64,000 nucleotides of DNA from Gloeothece verrucosa PCC 7822 (lineage in GTDB: Bacteria; Cyanobacteriota; Cyanobacteriia; Cyanobacteriales; Microcystaceae): contig NC_014501.1 of the NCBI RefSeq assembly GCF_000147335.1, forward strand, positions 2,354,300-2,418,299, written 5' to 3'. The notes beneath the pieces are model-generated. The model was not told the origin of the DNA, searched no databases, and saw only the letters and a list, made by a program, of their open reading frames with translations. Shown here piece after piece: positions 5,168-15,992 of the stretch; the first letter of the stretch is position 1; each line of letters starts with the position of its first letter. Position numbers and translations under genes: made by a program.

Positions 5168-5869
5168 TTACTGAACGCCGATTTCTCGGCCCTTAGAACC
5201 AAATACAATGGGATTGTCACTATTATGAGGCTCCCATCCCACATCAAATCCTTTTTTGATGGCTTTTTCTCTAGCAAGGCGAAAAGCGGAAAAACTATCT
5301 TGTCGGACAATAAAAGCTAAATAATCTTGTTTAGGATTGAGTTTTTGTAAAACTGACTCGAATTCAGAGTTAGGTTCAGTAAATTGTTCTACTGTCTCAC
5401 CGACTTTTTCATTGAGCGGCTCATACAACAAAGCATTTAAGTCATATAAACGAACATTATAAGAGTTCGTGGTAACTTGAAAATTCTTTATTTTTTCAAC
5501 GGACTTAAGTTTGCACTGTTCATAATCTTGTAGCCGCTCAGTATAAGTTTGATAAGCCGAGGCATCGGACGTATCAGGAAGCTTAGGATGAGGACAAGAG
5601 GGTAAAGATTTTGTTAACAATCCTAACTGATGCTGAACTTCTTCATCATCGATAAAAATAACCCGATTTTTATTCACTTCAAAAAAGTGAGGTTTTTTGT
5701 TAGTTTTAGCTACCAAGGGGGTATGAATAATTTTACCGCCTTGCACGCTGACCAGAGTAATAAACAAACTAATAAACATTAATACACCCACTGTATTAGT
5801 GAGAATATCTAAAAATGAGTCTAAATTTTGAGTAGGTAAACTTAAAGTACGATGTTGCCTTCTTCTCAT
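5168..5869 (-). CDS. ExbD/MotB-like membrane protein 2 (keeps the membrane Asp)
   Basis: A 233-residue protein with a basic N-terminus and one membrane helix at about residues 18-42. The helix starts Ser-Phe-Leu-Asp-Ile-Leu-Thr-Asn-Thr-Val-Gly, matching the ExbD/TolR pattern Pro-Phe-Ile-Asp, so the ion-carrying aspartate is present. A soluble domain follows, with a coil-like middle and a C-terminal unit (Ile-Val-Arg-Gln-Asp-Ser-Phe, then Lys-Gly-Phe-Asp-Val-Gly-Trp-Glu-Pro) that is clearly paralogous to the end of the upstream ExbD-like protein. Its ATG overlaps the upstream stop (ATGA at 5866-5869), implying translational coupling. Role by family: stator partner of an ExbB/TolQ/MotA-type channel. 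No OmpA-like peptidoglycan domain is visible. Confidence 0.72.
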   Translation of the reverse strand: MRRRQHRTLSLPTQNLDSFLDILTNTVGVLMFISLFITLVSVQGGKIIHTPLVAKTNKKPHFFEVNKNRVIFIDDEEVQHQLGLLTKSLPSCPHPKLPDTSDASAYQTYTERLQDYEQCKLKSVEKIKNFQVTTNSYNVRLYDLNALLYEPLNEKVGETVEQFTEPNSEFESVLQKLNPKQDYLAFIVRQDSFSAFRLAREKAIKKGFDVGWEPHNSDNPIVFGSKGREIGVQ

Positions 5870-6327
5870 TTTTTTGCCTCAAATTTAACTTTAATTCCTT
5901 CTTCAATAGGTTCATAACCCATGTCGATTCCTTGCTTTTCTATCACCTCCCTAATTTCTTGAAAAATATCAAATCCATCGGGACGTACCACCACAATTAA
6001 ATACTCTTTATTTTTATGATTTTTGACTTTTTCTAGCAAGGTTTTAAATGGAGAAGATGGACTATATAAATTAGCTTTTTTAACTAATTTTTTGCTGGGA
6101 TAAATAATTACTCCGTCCCCTTTACATTCTATATAATTAGGAAGTTTACTAGAGTTTTTTCCATTTTCTCCTTTAGCGACAATAGTCACTGCGCCATCTT
6201 CGCCAAACATTTGAGTCGTTAAAACAATGATTAATAAAATTAGTGTTCCTATCGTACAGGCTAAGATAGACAAGAAAGGAAACAATTCGACTTCAGTAGA
6301 AGAACGGGAAAACCGACGACGACGCAT
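5866..6327 (-). CDS. ExbD-like membrane protein 1 (membrane Asp replaced by Ser)
   Basis: A 153-residue protein: Arg-rich N-terminus, one membrane helix at about residues 15-42, then a small soluble domain. The helix begins Phe-Pro-Phe-Leu-Ser-Ile-Leu-Ala-Cys-Thr-Ile-Gly, which aligns with Phe-Leu-Asp-Ile-Leu-Thr-Asn-Thr-Val-Gly in the downstream paralogue; the ExbD aspartate position is Ser here. The C-terminal unit (Val-Val-Arg-Pro-Asp-Gly-Phe, Gly-Ile-Asp-Met-Gly-Tyr-Glu-Pro) matches that paralogue too. It is 14 bp downstream of the ExbB-like gene and overlaps the next gene by 4 bp, so the three are one operon. Likely a subunit of a heteromeric stator; its function is unknown. Confidence 0.72.
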   Translation of the reverse strand: MRRRRFSRSSTEVELFPFLSILACTIGTLILLIIVLTTQMFGEDGAVTIVAKGENGKNSSKLPNYIECKGDGVIIYPSKKLVKKANLYSPSSPFKTLLEKVKNHKNKEYLIVVVRPDGFDIFQEIREVIEKQGIDMGYEPIEEGIKVKFEAKK

Positions 6328-6341
6328 ACGGGTTTATCTCC

Positions 6342-8096
6342 TTATTCATCTGACTCAGCAAAGGTAATAATCCGAGGCTTACTTAACTTTTCTAAACTGG
6401 GTTTAAGTTCTTTAATTTGTGACATAGCTTCTTTAATGACTTGTTCCACTGGCTCGACTTTTTCTAGGGATTTAATTAAATGATCTAAGCTGGTTTTTAA
6501 TTGGGTGATATCAGAGAGTTTATAAGCCGCATTTTCTAAAGATTGAATTCGGGTTTCGAGAAGATTAGCCGCCTGTTTAAGTTGCTCAGTCATTTGGTGA
6601 GATTGAGTCGTTAAAGCACCGGATAATTGCGTGTAGTTGCTCTTCAAGCTTTCAGCCAGATGATTAATCTGTGTTAGTAAACTTTGGTTAACTTGCTGTT
6701 GATTTTCTAGAGAACCGGTGTAATTAACTTTCAGTTGTTCCACTAGATGATTAATCTGTGTCAGTAAACCTTGGTTAACTTGCTGTTGATTCTCGAGAGA
6801 ACCTGTGTAATTAACTTTCAGTTGTTCTACGAGATTGTTTATTTTTGTCAGTAAATCTTGGTTGACCTGCTGTTGATTTTCTAGAGAATTTCGGTAATTA
6901 CTTGTCAATTTCTCTACTAAACCATTAACTTGATTAATTAAATCTTGGTTAACTTGCTGTTGATTTTCTAGAGAATCCGTATAGTTAATTTTTAACCCCT
7001 CGAATAAACGGTTAATTTGCCCGGTTAAATCCTGATAGGCTTGTTGTTGTCTTTCTAGAAAAGTGGTAAACCCTTGTCTATCCTGTAAACTCAGTTGATT
7101 AATTTCATTCAGTTGAGTGATAAAACTTTGATTATTTTTTTGAATTTCCGTTAATTCATTTCCTAAAATGAGTCTTAAATCAGTCACCGCTTGTTTAGCA
7201 TATTCATGGGCGGGTTCAATCAAATCTTGTGCCCGAGGAAAAGACTCTTGAATGGCTTGATTAACGGCTTCCTTAAGGTTTTTTTGCTCTAAACTATTGC
7301 TTTCTTCTTTAAAGCGAGGCAGTAATTCATCGTTAATAAAAATATCAATAGCCAGCAATAATCGAGATTCATATCGTTCGACCAACACCATAGGAATCAT
7401 CACTAATACACTGAGCAACAAAGCTAATAAGGTGGTATCAAAAGCCACCGCTAACCCACTGGTGACGGTGCCAATACCTTGTTTAATTTGTCCAATATCA
7501 CTAGACTTTTCTAAAAATCCATTAAAGCCATTCACCGCTTGACTAATTCCTACCACAGTTCCAATAAAACCTAAGAGCGGAATGGCCCAGATTAAAATCC
7601 GAGGAAAAGCATAAGAAGATTCTGAACTACTGACATAAAAAGAAGCATCATCTAGGGCAAATTCGCTGGCGGTCTTGCGGCTATTAGATTGACTATAAGC
7701 GGCAATGACGCGGCTACAGCGTAGGCCCACCAACGAGTTTTCTCTAGCGAGATTTTTTTGAAAGGTTAAAACTTCTAAAGATTGAGGATTATTAAAGTTA
7801 ATCACATCGGAGATCCAAATCCGCTTAAGTGAGCGAAATTCCCGATTAATTTTGATTAACTTGATCAGCGTTAAGGTAGCAACAATACAAGCAAACCAAA
7901 TGGCTAACGGCTGAGTCCATCCTCGATCATAAAGTAAAATCCCCAGATAAGAAGCTCGAAAAGGTAGAACAGCCACATAAATAATAATAGACAAGGCCAA
8001 AGCAAGGGTTAAAATAAGCCCAAAACTGACCTCTAATCTCTTTCTTTCAGAATCTCCAGATGTAGGAGAAAAATTAGCACCTCGTTTTTGTTTCAT
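6342..8096 (-). CDS. MotA/TolQ/ExbB-family ion-channel protein with long repetitive coiled-coil tail
   Basis: A 584-residue protein. Two hydrophobic segments lie near residues 22-46 and 62-82. The MotA/TolQ/ExbB core spans about 165-260, with Pro-Leu-Leu-Gly-Phe-Ile-Gly-Thr-Val-Val-Gly-Ile and Gly-Leu-Ala-Val-Ala-Phe-Asp-Thr-Thr-Leu-Leu-Ala-Leu. The C-terminal 320 residues have no membrane segment, are Gln/Asn/Leu-rich and predicted coiled coil. They include five 29-residue repeats of the type Asn-Tyr-Thr-x-Ser-Leu-Glu-Asn-Gln-Gln-Gln-Val-Asn-Gln. Ordinary ExbB and TolQ (about 230-240 residues) lack this tail; ZorA-type and some motility stators have long tails. It is first of a three-gene operon with two ExbD-like genes. 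The task powered by the channel is unknown. Confidence 0.8.
   Translation of the reverse strand: MKQKRGANFSPTSGDSERKRLEVSFGLILTLALALSIIIYVAVLPFRASYLGILLYDRGWTQPLAIWFACIVATLTLIKLIKINREFRSLKRIWISDVINFNNPQSLEVLTFQKNLARENSLVGLRCSRVIAAYSQSNSRKTASEFALDDASFYVSSSESSYAFPRILIWAIPLLGFIGTVVGISQAVNGFNGFLEKSSDIGQIKQGIGTVTSGLAVAFDTTLLALLLSVLVMIPMVLVERYESRLLLAIDIFINDELLPRFKEESNSLEQKNLKEAVNQAIQESFPRAQDLIEPAHEYAKQAVTDLRLILGNELTEIQKNNQSFITQLNEINQLSLQDRQGFTTFLERQQQAYQDLTGQINRLFEGLKINYTDSLENQQQVNQDLINQVNGLVEKLTSNYRNSLENQQQVNQDLLTKINNLVEQLKVNYTGSLENQQQVNQGLLTQINHLVEQLKVNYTGSLENQQQVNQSLLTQINHLAESLKSNYTQLSGALTTQSHQMTEQLKQAANLLETRIQSLENAAYKLSDITQLKTSLDHLIKSLEKVEPVEQVIKEAMSQIKELKPSLEKLSKPRIITFAESDE
6639..7073 (-). repeat. 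Five tandem 87-bp units inside the ExbB-like gene
   Basis: The motif ACTTGCTGTT (plus-strand reading) and its variants recur at 6691, 6778, 6865, 6952 and 7039, exactly 87 bp apart. This gives five in-frame units of 29 residues, the last two nearly identical at DNA level. A sixth, degenerate unit appears to follow towards the C-terminus. In-frame length and heptad-like Leu spacing indicate extension of a coiled coil by unit duplication. Copy number may vary between strains. Confidence 0.9.
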
Positions 8097-8183: not shown

Positions 8184-9626
8184 CTACTTCTGCAAAAGCG
8201 GCAAAGTGATGGAAAAAATACTCCCTTGTCCCGGTTGGGAAGATAAAGAAATATGACCATCCATTCCCTCTACAAGGGTTTTGACGATCGCAAGACCTAA
8301 CCCTGTTCCTCCCGTACTGCGGCTTCGTGCTTCATCTGCTCGATAAAACCGTTCAAAAATTCTAGCTTGATCCGGCAAAGAAATACCGATACCCCGATCA
8401 CATACCTGTAAAATGCAGGAGTGCTGTTGTGCTTCTAACTTAACCGTAATGGGCGTTTGAGCATCAGAATATTTTACGCCGTTATCAATGAGATTGTATA
8501 ACACCTGTCTGAGACGAACCGGATCAGCTTGAATGGTTATAGGATCACAAGGAATGACAAAATCTATTTGCCGATCAGCGTATTTTTGGGTTTTTTCCAT
8601 TACCTCTTTTAACCAATCATTGAGGATAATGGGTTCTAGATGAAAGTGCATCCGCCCACTATCGGCCCGGGCCAGGTCTAACAAATCTTGTAGCAATTGA
8701 ATGGTACGATCAGCTTCAGAAAGGGCAATTTCTAAGGCTTCCCGTTGAGTAGCTGTTAAATTATTCCCACGACGCAAGGCGCTTTGAAGATAACCCGAAA
8801 CAATGGTTAAAGGCGTTCGTAATTCATGGGAAACATCACTAAGTAACTGTCTTTGATGTTCCCACGCCTCGGAAAGACGGTTTAACATTTGGTCAAACGT
8901 GTGAGCTAATTGTTTCACTTCTCGGGGCGCATTTTTTAAGTCAATACGTGCTTCTCCCAATTTTTCAGCAGAAATACTTTCGGTTAACTGAGAAATTCGT
9001 TGTAAAGGTTGCAGAGAATGCCTAACATACCAAGCAATAGTCACTGTCATGATACCAATGGCGATCACGGTAGCCATGCCTAAATTGATCATCAGACTAA
9101 AAAACATGACTTGATCGCCGGTGATATCTTGAGCGATATAAATGTGACCTAAATTGACTCCTTTTACCTTGAGCGAATTAGTACACAGTAACCAGTAACG
9201 TCCATTGAGGTATTGTAGCTCGGGTTGAGAGAAAATTTGCTTAAAGGCGAGTAAATTTTGGCCATTACTGCCCATTTTAAGCGGCATCGACTCGGCCGTA
9301 ATTTGGCCTTGAGGATTTTTTGCCCATAGTAAGGTTTTATTATCGGTTAAATTATCAATGGCTTTTTGCAGTCCAGTTTCTAGGGTTACCATATCGCTGT
9401 AAATTTCCACATCATGAGGAAAGCGATCAGTGATGTAGCGAATATTTTGTTTATGAGTTTCTATGAGTATATTTTGCATTTTCCAACTGATCCACACCGC
9501 CACAGTTCCTAACCCCAGTGCAGAAACAGTTGCTACTCCAAGGGTGAGACGAACTCGTAACGAGGTAGCATTAATCTGGTGAGGAAGTCTAAGGAGAGGT
9601 TGGAAAAGGCGATCAAGAAACTTCAT
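8184..9626 (-). CDS. Sensor histidine kinase (TM-sensor-TM-HAMP-HisKA-HATPase)
   Basis: A 480-residue protein from the ATG at 9626. The frame stays open further upstream, but those 58 codons are not kinase-like, so I choose 9626. A first membrane helix lies at about residues 30-50, an extracytoplasmic sensor of about 110 residues follows, a second helix at about 175-200, then HAMP. The phospho-acceptor His267 lies in Ser-Asp-Val-Ser-His-Glu-Leu-Arg-Thr-Pro. The ATPase domain has an N-box (Leu-Ile-Asp-Asn-Gly-Val-Lys-Tyr), Asp-Arg-Gly-Ile-Gly-Ile, and Gly-Thr-Gly-Leu-Gly-Leu-Ala-Ile-Val. No response regulator is adjacent, so it is an orphan here. It sits 87 bp upstream of the ExbB-like gene on the same strand. 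Signal unknown. Confidence 0.88.
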   Translation of the reverse strand: MKFLDRLFQPLLRLPHQINATSLRVRLTLGVATVSALGLGTVAVWISWKMQNILIETHKQNIRYITDRFPHDVEIYSDMVTLETGLQKAIDNLTDNKTLLWAKNPQGQITAESMPLKMGSNGQNLLAFKQIFSQPELQYLNGRYWLLCTNSLKVKGVNLGHIYIAQDITGDQVMFFSLMINLGMATVIAIGIMTVTIAWYVRHSLQPLQRISQLTESISAEKLGEARIDLKNAPREVKQLAHTFDQMLNRLSEAWEHQRQLLSDVSHELRTPLTIVSGYLQSALRRGNNLTATQREALEIALSEADRTIQLLQDLLDLARADSGRMHFHLEPIILNDWLKEVMEKTQKYADRQIDFVIPCDPITIQADPVRLRQVLYNLIDNGVKYSDAQTPITVKLEAQQHSCILQVCDRGIGISLPDQARIFERFYRADEARSRSTGGTGLGLAIVKTLVEGMDGHISLSSQPGQGSIFSITLPLLQK

Positions 9627-9814
9627 CGATAGTAATAGAAGACAGGGGTGCAACGCTCGTGTTCCACACTGCACGCTCAATATATTAGAGTATGACCCAT
9701 AAAGATGATTTTTCCTTGATGTAAAGCTGAGTTTTTGCTGAAAAGATGTCAGGCGGCTCGTCAATAGCGGTAAACTTAAGAACAAATAAGAAATTAACAT
9801 AAAGGGAAAGAAAT

Positions 9815-13772: not shown

Positions 13773-15992
13773 ATGTGGCGTACAACTAAGTTACCAATAT
13801 CATTTGAATTCAACGATCTAATACCTAGCCTAGCAGTAAGTGTCATCAGTGGCGCAATCGGCATTATGATTTCGATCTCCTATGCGGCTTTGATTTTTTC
13901 GGGAAATCTAACTAATCATATTGCCGCAGGAATAGGTATTGCTTTGATCAGTGCTGTGGTTTTTCGAGGAGTGATCGCTTTAACCAGTTCTTTTCCGGGT
14001 ATGATTGCTGATAGCGATGCCCTACCCACTGCTATTTTAGCCATCAGTGCTGTAGCGATTCAAGAGCAAATGTCATCAACATCCGGCATCAATGAAGAGG
14101 AAATTTTTTATACGATCATCACAGTTATTGCGCTTACTTCTGTTCTGACAGGTGTATTTTTATTAACTTTAGGACGATTAAAAATTGGGGGATTAATTCG
14201 CTTTATTCCTTATCCGGTTATTGGAGGATTTTTAGCTGGCACGGGATGGTTATTAATTCAAGGTGCTATGCAAGTGATGACAGATATTAGCCCCAGTTTT
14301 TCTAACTTCTCGGTATTTTTTCAATCCAATATTATAGTTCATTGGCTGTTTGGTTTAATCGTGGGAGCTTGCTTATTTGTTATCTCTCGAACTACCAATC
14401 ATCCCCTAAGCGTACCCGGTATATTAGCTTTATCTATTATTATATTTTACCTTTATGTCTGGGCAACTGGCGTAACAATTGCCGAATTACAGTCCTCGGG
14501 ATGGTTATTTAGTCAATTTCCCGAAGGGGGGATCTGGCAACCTTTTAAATTATCAAATTTGAATCACGTTAACTGGATGGCGGTTTTCGGACAAGTGGGA
14601 AATTTAATCACTATCATGATTGTTAGTGCTGTTTCTATTATGTTGACTGTCAGTAGTCTAGAAATTGTCAGTCAACAAGATATTGAAATTAACCAAGAAT
14701 TAGAAGTTGCCGGCATAGCTAATATTATTTCTGGTACCTTGGGGGGAATGGTCGGTTATCAGATTTTAGCTGACTCTGTTTTGGCTTATAAAATGGGGGC
14801 TAAAACTCGCTTGGTGGGCTTTTTGACGGCTGTAGTCTGTTTAATTGTTGTGATTGGCGGAGCCTCGTTATTTAGCTTGATCCCTAAACCCATTTTTGGG
14901 GGAATGTTATTGTTTCTTGGCTTAGATTTTTTTGGAGAATGGATTCAGCAATCTCGCTTCAAACTTGCTCAAGCAGATATTTTTGTTGTTCTGTTGATTG
15001 CTGTTATTATTGTTTTTGTCGGATTTCTTCAAGGAGTGGCTATTGGTTTGATCTTAGCTGTAGTAATTTTTGTCATCAACTACAGTCTCACTGATGTGAT
15101 TAAACAACAACTTTCAGGAGCCAATTGCCAAAGTAATGTACAGCGTTTTCAGTCTCAAGAAAATTTGCTCAAAAGCTTAACTGATCAAATTCATGTCATT
15201 AAACTACAAGGTTTTATTTTTTTTGGCACTGCCAATCACTTAGTGAATCAAATTCGTCGCCGCATGGCTGATCCTCAAAAAATGCCTTTGCGCTATGTTA
15301 TCTTAGATTTTCGTCATGTAAGCGGCTTAGATTCTTCGGCTATATTTAGCTTTATTAAGTTAAAAATTTTAGCTCAACAAAATAATTTATCTATTCTTTA
15401 TACCACCATTCCTAACTCGATTGGAAAAAGGCTTTTACAAGCTGATTGTTTAGATGATGAACATAAACTTGCCTTGCTTTTACCTACTTTAGATCGAGGA
15501 TTAGAATGGTGTGAAAATCAATTATTAGAAGAATTTATTAATCTTCAAGAAAGTCCACAAACTTTAGCTGAACAACTCACTCAACTTTTCCTTAGACCGG
15601 AACAAGTGTTTAAATTTATGAAATATTTGATTTGTTTAGATTATTCGTCCGGTGAATTAATTTTTAAACAGGGCGAACCCTCTGATGGACTATATTTTTT
15701 AGAATCTGGTCAAGTGACCGTTATGATCGAAACTTCTTCTCAACAACGCAAACGTCTGCGGACATTTCAAGTGGGTACTATTTTGGGAGAAATGGGCATC
15801 TATGATGACTCGCCTCGTTCAGCTTCTGTGGTGGCTGATAGACCGAGTTGCGCCTATTTCTTATCTCAAGAAAATCTCAAGAAAATGGAGAAATTTGACG
15901 CTCCCTTAGCCGTCGCTTTTCATCGTTTTATTGCTCAATTGCTAGTCAAACGATTTAAACGAGTTCAACAAGATTTACTTGAGTCGGCTTAA
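13773..15992 (+). CDS. SulP-family anion transporter with STAS and cyclic-nucleotide-binding domains
   Basis: A 739-residue fusion. The SulP membrane core has roughly ten or more helices over residues 15-430 and includes Phe-Ile-Pro-Tyr-Pro-Val-Ile-Gly-Gly-Phe. STAS follows at about 455-575 (Ile-Leu-Asp-Phe-Arg-His-Val-Ser-Gly-Leu-Asp-Ser-Ser). A cNMP-binding domain lies at about 605-735 with the phosphate-binding cassette Gly-Glu-Met-Gly-Ile-Tyr-Asp-Asp-Ser-Pro-Arg-Ser-Ala; the Glu and Arg that hold the cyclic phosphate and ribose are near residues 672 and 680. SulP proteins carry sulfate or bicarbonate (BicA). The cNMP domain is an addition, suggesting gating by cAMP or another nucleotide. 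It is divergent from a NitT/TauT importer. Confidence 0.9.
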   Translation: MWRTTKLPISFEFNDLIPSLAVSVISGAIGIMISISYAALIFSGNLTNHIAAGIGIALISAVVFRGVIALTSSFPGMIADSDALPTAILAISAVAIQEQMSSTSGINEEEIFYTIITVIALTSVLTGVFLLTLGRLKIGGLIRFIPYPVIGGFLAGTGWLLIQGAMQVMTDISPSFSNFSVFFQSNIIVHWLFGLIVGACLFVISRTTNHPLSVPGILALSIIIFYLYVWATGVTIAELQSSGWLFSQFPEGGIWQPFKLSNLNHVNWMAVFGQVGNLITIMIVSAVSIMLTVSSLEIVSQQDIEINQELEVAGIANIISGTLGGMVGYQILADSVLAYKMGAKTRLVGFLTAVVCLIVVIGGASLFSLIPKPIFGGMLLFLGLDFFGEWIQQSRFKLAQADIFVVLLIAVIIVFVGFLQGVAIGLILAVVIFVINYSLTDVIKQQLSGANCQSNVQRFQSQENLLKSLTDQIHVIKLQGFIFFGTANHLVNQIRRRMADPQKMPLRYVILDFRHVSGLDSSAIFSFIKLKILAQQNNLSILYTTIPNSIGKRLLQADCLDDEHKLALLLPTLDRGLEWCENQLLEEFINLQESPQTLAEQLTQLFLRPEQVFKFMKYLICLDYSSGELIFKQGEPSDGLYFLESGQVTVMIETSSQQRKRLRTFQVGTILGEMGIYDDSPRSASVVADRPSCAYFLSQENLKKMEKFDAPLAVAFHRFIAQLLVKRFKRVQQDLLESA

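Follow-up and report, generated by a model that had tools for sequence, protein, structure and literature searches.

A three-gene ExbB/ExbD-like family of cyanobacteria and Planctomycetota in which one of the two putative axle subunits mostly lacks the ion-carrying aspartate

A stretch of 64,000 nucleotides from Gloeothece verrucosa PCC 7822 (contig NC_014501.1, positions 2,354,300 to 2,418,299; hereafter the window) carries a compact operon encoding an ExbB/TolQ/MotA-type channel subunit (ExbB) and two different ExbD-like proteins (ExbD1 and ExbD2). This trio is a widespread conserved family of cyanobacteria and Planctomycetota, not a local oddity. The aspartate expected in the transmembrane (TM) helix of both axle subunits is present in ExbD2 and replaced by a serine in ExbD1. 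With a probability of about 0.55, the trio is read here as a motor of the inner membrane, powered by ions and belonging to the TolQR/ExbBD (5:2) class, with the composition ExbB5:ExbD1:ExbD2, a heterodimeric axle, and one ion site. The initial annotation, made from the DNA alone, had described the three genes as a possibly undescribed system; it was incomplete in that it overlooked the missing aspartate, the most distinctive feature of the family.

The window sits on a 6.09-Mb contig of a genome of 7.84 Mb in total. The coordinates and strand of the three-gene operon are confirmed, with a 14-bp gap between ExbB and ExbD1 (6328-6341) and a 4-bp overlap between ExbD1 and ExbD2 (5866-5869). The features of the operon are as follows:

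6342..8096, minus strand: ExbB/TolQ/MotA-like channel subunit, 584 residues (Pfam MotA_ExbB, AlphaFold2 model, structural matches to TolQ, ExbB, ZorA and MotA)
5866..6327, minus strand: ExbD1-like axle subunit, 153 residues, TM motif LFPFLS without Asp (TM motif, profile alignment to ExbD)
5168..5869, minus strand: ExbD2-like axle subunit, 233 residues, TM motif NLDSFLD with Asp (TM motif, model, structural matches)
6268..6270, minus strand: codon of ExbD1 Ser20, at the site of the ion-carrying Asp (alignments)
5807..5809, minus strand: codon of ExbD2 Asp21, the retained ion-carrying Asp (alignments)
7557..7559, minus strand: codon of ExbB Thr180, threonine ring (ExbB alignments)
7431..7439, minus strand: ExbB Asp220-Thr221-Thr222, AFDTT motif (ExbB alignments)
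6658..7059, minus strand: 87-bp (29-residue) tandem repeats in the ExbB rod (Tandem Repeats Finder)
6345..6383, minus strand: conserved C-terminal rod tip of ExbB, SKPRIITFAESDE; family consensus KPRRITLVE (tip motif)

The two axle helices of a 5:2 motor each have an ion-taking aspartate (PMC9389320). The trio departs from this feature of the ExbBD, TolQR and MotAB type, as ExbD2 has the Asp and ExbD1 a Ser. The asymmetry is conserved. Among 43 cyanobacterial loci, consisting of the window and 42 fetched stretches of which two come from plasmids, the ExbD2 Asp is found in all 39 copies adjoining ExbD1 and in the displaced copies of the other four loci (L088, L101, L102, and L104). At the corresponding site, ExbD1 has Ser in 41 of the 43 loci and Asp in two (L092 and L093). 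In a profile alignment that is itself sub-significant (E 0.89), Ser20 of ExbD1 falls on the Asp of the TPFID motif of E. coli ExbD, and the same register is obtained when the ExbD1 profile is aligned to ExbD2-type proteins. Asp25 is taken here to be the functional residue of E. coli ExbD.

The same asymmetry extends beyond cyanobacteria. When a collection of one genome per species was scanned with a DNA pattern encoding the ExbD2 motif, at least 117 stretches matched, and 80 loci were listed: 64 under Planctomycetota titles, 14 under Cyanobacteriota, one under Chloroflexota, and one from an unassigned metagenome-assembled genome (MAG). Since the pattern requires the ExbD2 Asp, only the ExbD1 residue is informative in this set, which shares at least four cyanobacterial loci with the 43 above. 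Among the loci listed, ExbD1 is readable in 54 of the 80, with Asp absent in 51 and present in three. The cyanobacterial copies have Ser (12) or Asp (1), the planctomycete ones Ala (34), Thr (2), Gly (1), or Asp (2), the Chloroflexota-titled MAG has Ser, and the unassigned MAG has Ala. Besides these, 20 planctomycete stretches were fetched, five of them (L266-L270) from genomes of pattern-seeded loci and 15, from 11 genomes, seeded by ExbB alone. An LFPF-type ExbD1 with Ala or Ser was found in ten of these 15 ExbB-seeded stretches (L256-L261, L263-L265, and L275). The weaker matches of the planctomycete ExbB query, seen as short loci, are mixed.

The three genes also travel together. In a sample of 243 genomes drawn from the order of the window (Cyanobacteriales), ExbB has matches in 65 at E<=1e-3, of which 54 reach E<=1e-60 and the other 11 are weak (E 1e-4 or worse). 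ExbD1 is present in 55 genomes, namely the same 54 and G148, and ExbD2 also in 55, namely 53 of the 54 together with G148 and G128, the latter having a short remnant with a stop. All three proteins are thus encoded in 53 of the 54 ExbB genomes, the exception being G224, in which a contig ends inside ExbD1; G148 has ExbD2 and part of ExbD1, with no clear ExbB. The order ExbB, ExbD1, ExbD2 is kept in 39 of the 43 loci, that is, in all those where ExbD2 adjoins. This order and the near-perfect co-occurrence over 243 genomes argue that the trio is not a chance grouping. ExbD1 is next downstream of ExbB in 43/43 loci, even where ExbD2 has moved; outside these loci, the drafts G133 and G159 have ExbB and ExbD1 on different contigs. 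ExbD2 lies far from ExbB on the same contig in G041, G064, G117, and G083, and on another contig in the drafts G149 and G159. All six displaced copies are intact and carry NLDSFLD, and their retention argues that the three proteins work together. In Planctomycetota, a planctomycete ExbB query gave matches in 22 of 149 genomes. The idea of a local candidate confined to the window is therefore abandoned, and the three proteins, so far hypothetical or generically named, become a testable family in two phyla. A fourth partner was sought among the neighbours, and no non-trio cluster occurs in more than 11 of the 43 cyanobacterial or four of the 20 planctomycete stretches. A viral origin was considered and rejected, as the ExbD1 profile and the ExbD2 pattern have no relatives in viral contigs and ExbD1 has none in phages.

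The channel subunit belongs to the A subunits of 5:2 motors. Its Pfam MotA_ExbB match scores 27.3 bits for a cut-off of 22.9, in agreement with the family proposed initially. Its AlphaFold2 model has a mean predicted local distance difference test score (pLDDT) of 73, with block means of at least 82 over residues 21-190 and 211-260, and shows no strands, its four long helices of membrane type leading into further long helices. The helices taken as transmembrane by inspection are 25-46, 61-90, 163-197, and 201-261, and the approximately 320 residues after the last of them, the tail proposed initially, are predicted to be mostly helical. In structural comparison, the first 29 of 50 rows are TolQ, ExbB, ZorA, or flagellar stator A chains, led by TolQ with Z 14.2 (209 residues, root-mean-square deviation 4.3), followed by ExbB up to 13.0, ZorA at 10.8, and MotA at 10.2; the ranges are 14.2-11.9 for TolQ/ExbB and 10.8-9.5 for ZorA. 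The Foldseek top match is ZorA (E 6.4e-4). The assignment of the modelled core to the 5:2 A subunits is thus firm, whereas the nearest subfamily is not, because Z ranks TolQ/ExbB first and Foldseek ranks ZorA first. A profile search of full-length ExbB against solved structures was swamped by coiled coils.

The ion path of ExbB is strongly conserved. Residues were counted in three partly overlapping aligned sets of 43 cyanobacterial, 46 pattern-seeded, and 20 planctomycete sequences. Thr180 and Thr222, which belong to the threonine ring and the AFDTT motif, are invariant in all three (43/43, 46/46, and 20/20), and Asp220 is found in 43/43, 40/46, and 14/20, respectively. The complete ExbB copies of the 43 loci measure 371-584 residues, the window copy being the longest because of its 87-bp, 29-residue tandem repeats. 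Tandem Repeats Finder reports 3.7 and 2.4 copies, four 29-residue units span residues 371-486, and this stretch is mostly a gap in the other 26 rows of the ExbB alignment. The tip KPRRITLVE is kept in 41 of the 43 cyanobacterial proteins, and the planctomycete ends differ. A constant tip at the end of a variable rod would fit a docking site for a cytoplasmic partner. Two side observations concern single ExbB copies. The G085 gene (L096) has two in-frame stops, one TAG and one TAA, and may be decaying or misassembled, and the planctomycete homologues L251 and L253 have, by eye, a Cys-rich, zinc-ribbon-like N-terminus.

Two different ExbD-like proteins had been proposed, and this holds, with an ExbD identity that rests on the TM motifs, on the above profile alignment of ExbD1 to E. 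coli ExbD, which is below significance, and, for ExbD2, on a weak match in structure. Pfam, NCBIfam, and PADLOC gave no match naming either protein, and a profile search of ExbD2 against solved structures gave nothing of note. The ExbD2 model (pLDDT 81) has ExbD (8pek, Z 6.6) and TolR (5by4, Z 6.4) as its top two structural matches, followed by an unrelated chain at Z 5.7. It has a larger periplasmic-type domain, with two cysteines (C92 and C119) that are invariant across alignments of 26 and of 35 rows.

The history of the asymmetry can be followed on a maximum-likelihood tree built quickly from 85 ExbB cores, with support from the Shimodaira-Hasegawa-like approximate likelihood ratio test (SH-aLRT). 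The ExbD1 residue state needs four changes on this tree. The cyanobacterial rows form one clade (100%), and the Asp-bearing ExbD1 loci L092, L093, and L121 form one clade (97%) nested among Ser-bearing relatives. By parsimony, the Ser of ExbD1 would be ancestral in cyanobacteria and the Asp regained once. Over 25 positions of the TM helix, the ExbD1 of L092 has 15 matches with the ExbD2 of that locus and 11 with a sister ExbD1, a pattern suggestive of partial conversion. Many planctomycete branches of the tree are long, and the number of state origins there is unsettled.

In the proposed mechanism, an ExbB pentamer would enclose one Asp-bearing helix, that of ExbD2, and one Asp-less helix, that of ExbD1. 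The ion-binding aspartate inside the threonine ring would be supplied by the ExbD2 helix only, and the helix of ExbD1 would be a structural partner that takes up no ion, with Ser at the site in cyanobacteria and mostly Ala in that of planctomycetes. A single site would imply five ions, of a kind that is itself conjectural here, and five 72-degree steps per turn instead of ten ions and 36-degree steps. The latter values are those of models of 5:2 motors with two equivalent axle subunits (PMC9389320). Both periplasmic ExbD/TolR-like domains would be located at the cell wall, and the tails of ExbB would come together as a cytoplasmic rod to which rotation or gating is passed. The conserved rod tip, KPRRITLVE in cyanobacteria, may then contact a cytosolic protein whose gene lies elsewhere. 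With the ion site missing from one axle subunit, this conserved family lends itself to testing the equivalent-subunit model, and nature provides the controls in the form of two-site revertants, a zero-site derivative, and two-site sister trios.

Several points weigh against such a single-site motor. We infer the 5:1:1 heterodimer from residues and folds, not from a complex, and ExbD2 is matched weakly in structure (Z 6.6 against 5.7 for an unrelated chain), its 50 Foldseek rows being devoid of ExbD and TolR. Asp220 of ExbB, acidic and placed beside the threonine ring, could take over the ion site. Asp is present in both subunits in the cyanobacterial loci L092, L093, and L121 and the planctomycete loci L152 and L169, which means that single-Asp operation is not obligatory. 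It is also present in both in five of the 15 ExbB-seeded planctomycete trios (L262 and L271-L274), for example as FxFQD with LELLLD, and in three of these (L262, L271, and L272) the residue at the site of ExbB Asp220 is Glu. The planctomycete stretches L257 and L259 have ExbB and ExbD1 with no ExbD2 in the 20 kb fetched. Finally, G059 keeps a trio whose two ExbD-like proteins are both without the TM Asp (L288:3830-5834 and L287:5236-5976) and whose ExbB retains Thr180, Asp220, and Thr222.

By the tests run, none of the named Ton, Tol, Mot, or Zorya systems fits the trio, as had been proposed. The trio resembles TolQR/ExbBD in its A-subunit fold, its threonine ring, and its single-TM B subunits, whose periplasmic fold may, by a weak match, be ExbD/TolR-like. 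It differs from them by its two different B subunits, one of which lacks the Asp, and by the extra N-terminal helix and tail of about 320 residues of its ExbB, with no TonB_C match in the window. The combination of one A subunit with two B subunits is already known from the AglRQS gliding motor of Myxococcus, compared here by description only; AglQ and AglS are both reported with a conserved Asp (PMC9389320), whereas the trio has it in one subunit. Heterologous tolR-like pairs are also known from the Planctomycetes-Verrucomicrobia-Chlamydiae (PVC) group, planctomycetes included, where a tolQ-like gene accompanies a pair of different B-type genes (PMC12204202, section on PVC pairs), and these pairs may overlap with the planctomycete trios. 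The TPH-vWA pairs of the same section are described with one Asp per monomer, and that section mentions neither the cyanobacterial trio nor a loss of the Asp. The trio proteins have no vWA domain: Pfam gave no such match in the window ExbD1 and ExbD2 or in nine planctomycete ExbD1/ExbD2 proteins scanned, and the matches of Pfam on planctomycete ExbD1/ExbD2 are all below cut-off. An open-access literature search returned no paper on the cyanobacterial trio or on an Asp-less axle subunit. The cyanobacterial family, its planctomycete link, and the ion-site loss in one partner did not turn up in the literature searched; the pairing of one A with two B subunits has precedents.

The absence of partner genes nearby, stated in the initial annotation, is borne out for TonB, OmpA-domain, and ZorD genes. 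Whole-genome profile searches placed no TonB_C, OmpA, or ZorD match in the window, in which the open reading frames at 1-20 kb were read by eye and those at 20-64 kb not profiled singly; no profile search was made for TolA. The genome has three matches to ZorD models, all outside the window. No OmpA-type domain was found by Pfam in ExbD1 or ExbD2 at E<=1, nor genome-wide at E<=0.001 in a search whose control matched 5/14. For ZorC and ZorE, the reading by eye of the window at 1-20 kb is the whole scope, as the search with EH_Signature, which presumably marks ZorC, matched no control and ZorE was not searched for. The ZorA-like architecture put forward initially stands for the layout of channel and long cytoplasmic rod, which Zorya ZorAB shares along with weak ZorA profile matches and the Foldseek rank. 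It fails for the rest, as the core is by Z nearer TolQ/ExbB, the curated ZorA model gives 29.9 bits for a cut-off of 100, and the trio has two B subunits, no OmpA-like domain, and no ZorD match in the window.

Other explanations have to be weighed against the heterodimeric motor. ExbD1 might stay outside the axle, with ExbD2 homodimers driving the ExbB pentamer and ExbD1 serving as an inhibitor, an assembly factor, or an exchangeable dead subunit that sets the ion leak. The ion site complete in ExbD2 alone and the existence of trios with Asp in both subunits speak for it, as does the family f13, in which ExbD2 is unlinked from ExbB in five of the 14 ExbB-bearing genomes (G041, G064, G083, G117, and G159). 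However, of the two ExbDs it is ExbD1 that has the tighter linkage to ExbB, which it directly follows in every one of the 43 loci, and it is present in 54/54 genomes with ExbB; the homodimer arrangement is considered unlikely. An ordinary second Ton- or Tol-like energiser using a TonB encoded elsewhere would agree with the nearness by Z of the ExbB core to TolQ and ExbB and with the single TonB_C match of the genome, in a protein about 284 kb from the trio. The genome nevertheless already has a canonical ExbB with an adjoining PLIDV-type ExbD about 1.37 Mb from the trio, the matched TolQ and ExbB chains have neither an extra N-terminal helix nor a long tail nor a pair of heterologous ExbDs, and non-trio genes recur in at most 11/43 loci, so that such an energiser is very improbable.

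A Zorya-like anti-phage device or a membrane-depolarising effector of type III CRISPR would account for the rod architecture and the weak ZorA profile matches, and for one clade of the ExbB tree (95%) in which L063, L064, L076, L085, and L100, all near defence genes, group with L099, L177, and G059. The five defence-linked copies are carried by two plasmids (Anabaena cylindrica pANACY.03 and Microcystis NIES-2481 p1) and three chromosomal or draft sequences. In L063 (10381-14571) and L076 (6987-11230), the trio is preceded by a co-directional Csx1/Csm6-type CARF-HEPN gene that ends a type III-B Cmr operon, at distances of 78 and 127 bp, respectively, so that the trio looks like part of a CRISPR accessory operon. 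In L064 (7065-14595, Microcystis plasmid), a CBASS-type cyclase, a SLATT effector with two TM helices, and an HKD/SNF2 helicase are directly upstream of the trio. A CARF-RelE gene is found about 4.9 kb from the trio in L100, and a viperin-like gene at about 6.5 kb with kinase genes at about 6 kb in L085, these being identified by identity with annotated L063 genes. Outside the clade, a control test with PADLOC (E<=1e-20), which left out these five loci and kept L099, compared 120 trio neighbours from 20 loci on long contigs with 120 genes about 0.2 Mb away on the same contigs. It matched 88 models among the neighbours and 52 among the controls, figures that are not protein counts since the models overlap heavily. 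No model exceeds 2/120 in the neighbours, whereas several reach 3/120 in the controls, and among the best 25 models the matches are mostly PD-T4-6 and Cas12f/u-type in both groups. Uma2 and Epimerase, the commonest Pfam families of the neighbours, reach 3/120 each, and among the matches listed cas10 is near the trio (about 8 kb) in a single genome, G201. For a defence-island reading of the whole family, the matches show no clear excess over controls outside one clade. With no OmpA-type domain in the ExbDs (Pfam) and with PAP2, glycosyltransferase-like, and histidine kinase genes as nearest neighbours in the window, the anti-phage explanation is judged quite improbable. Clear defence genes among the neighbours (Cmr/CARF, CBASS, and viperin), one of the leads of the initial annotation, are seen in one clade only, and a recruitment to defence is possible there; a defence role for the whole family is neither supported nor excluded.

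A bolder form of the heterodimeric motor reading can be put forward tentatively, at somewhat less than even odds. The trio would then be an ancient and obligate class of 5:1:1 single-ion-site rotary motors common to cyanobacteria and Planctomycetota, with a two-site revertant clade, and in one clade, partly plasmid-borne, the motor may have been co-opted into type III CRISPR or CBASS signalling as a membrane effector. If true, an obligate 5:1:1 motor would be an exception to the 10-fold symmetry whose universality among 5:2 motors a review considered almost certain.

Among the neighbours of the window trio, one is close enough to suggest shared regulation:

8184..9800, minus strand: histidine kinase gene upstream of ExbB, 87-bp gap (HAMP/HisKA/HATPase domains)

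A homologue of this kinase is directly upstream of the trio in L065, L113, and L184; L067, L083, and L099 lack it at this place, and it is not visible in the other stretches checked. It is possibly co-regulated with the trio and not a core part of it. No response regulator was noticed beside the gene. In 11 of the 43 loci (e.g., L072:9670-9897), in family f19 loci such as that of Xenococcus PCC 7305, a short membrane protein gene, LapA-like by eye, lies downstream of ExbD2. Further along the window, positions 13773-15992 encode a SulP-like transporter with, by eye, an apparent C-terminal cyclic-nucleotide-binding region.

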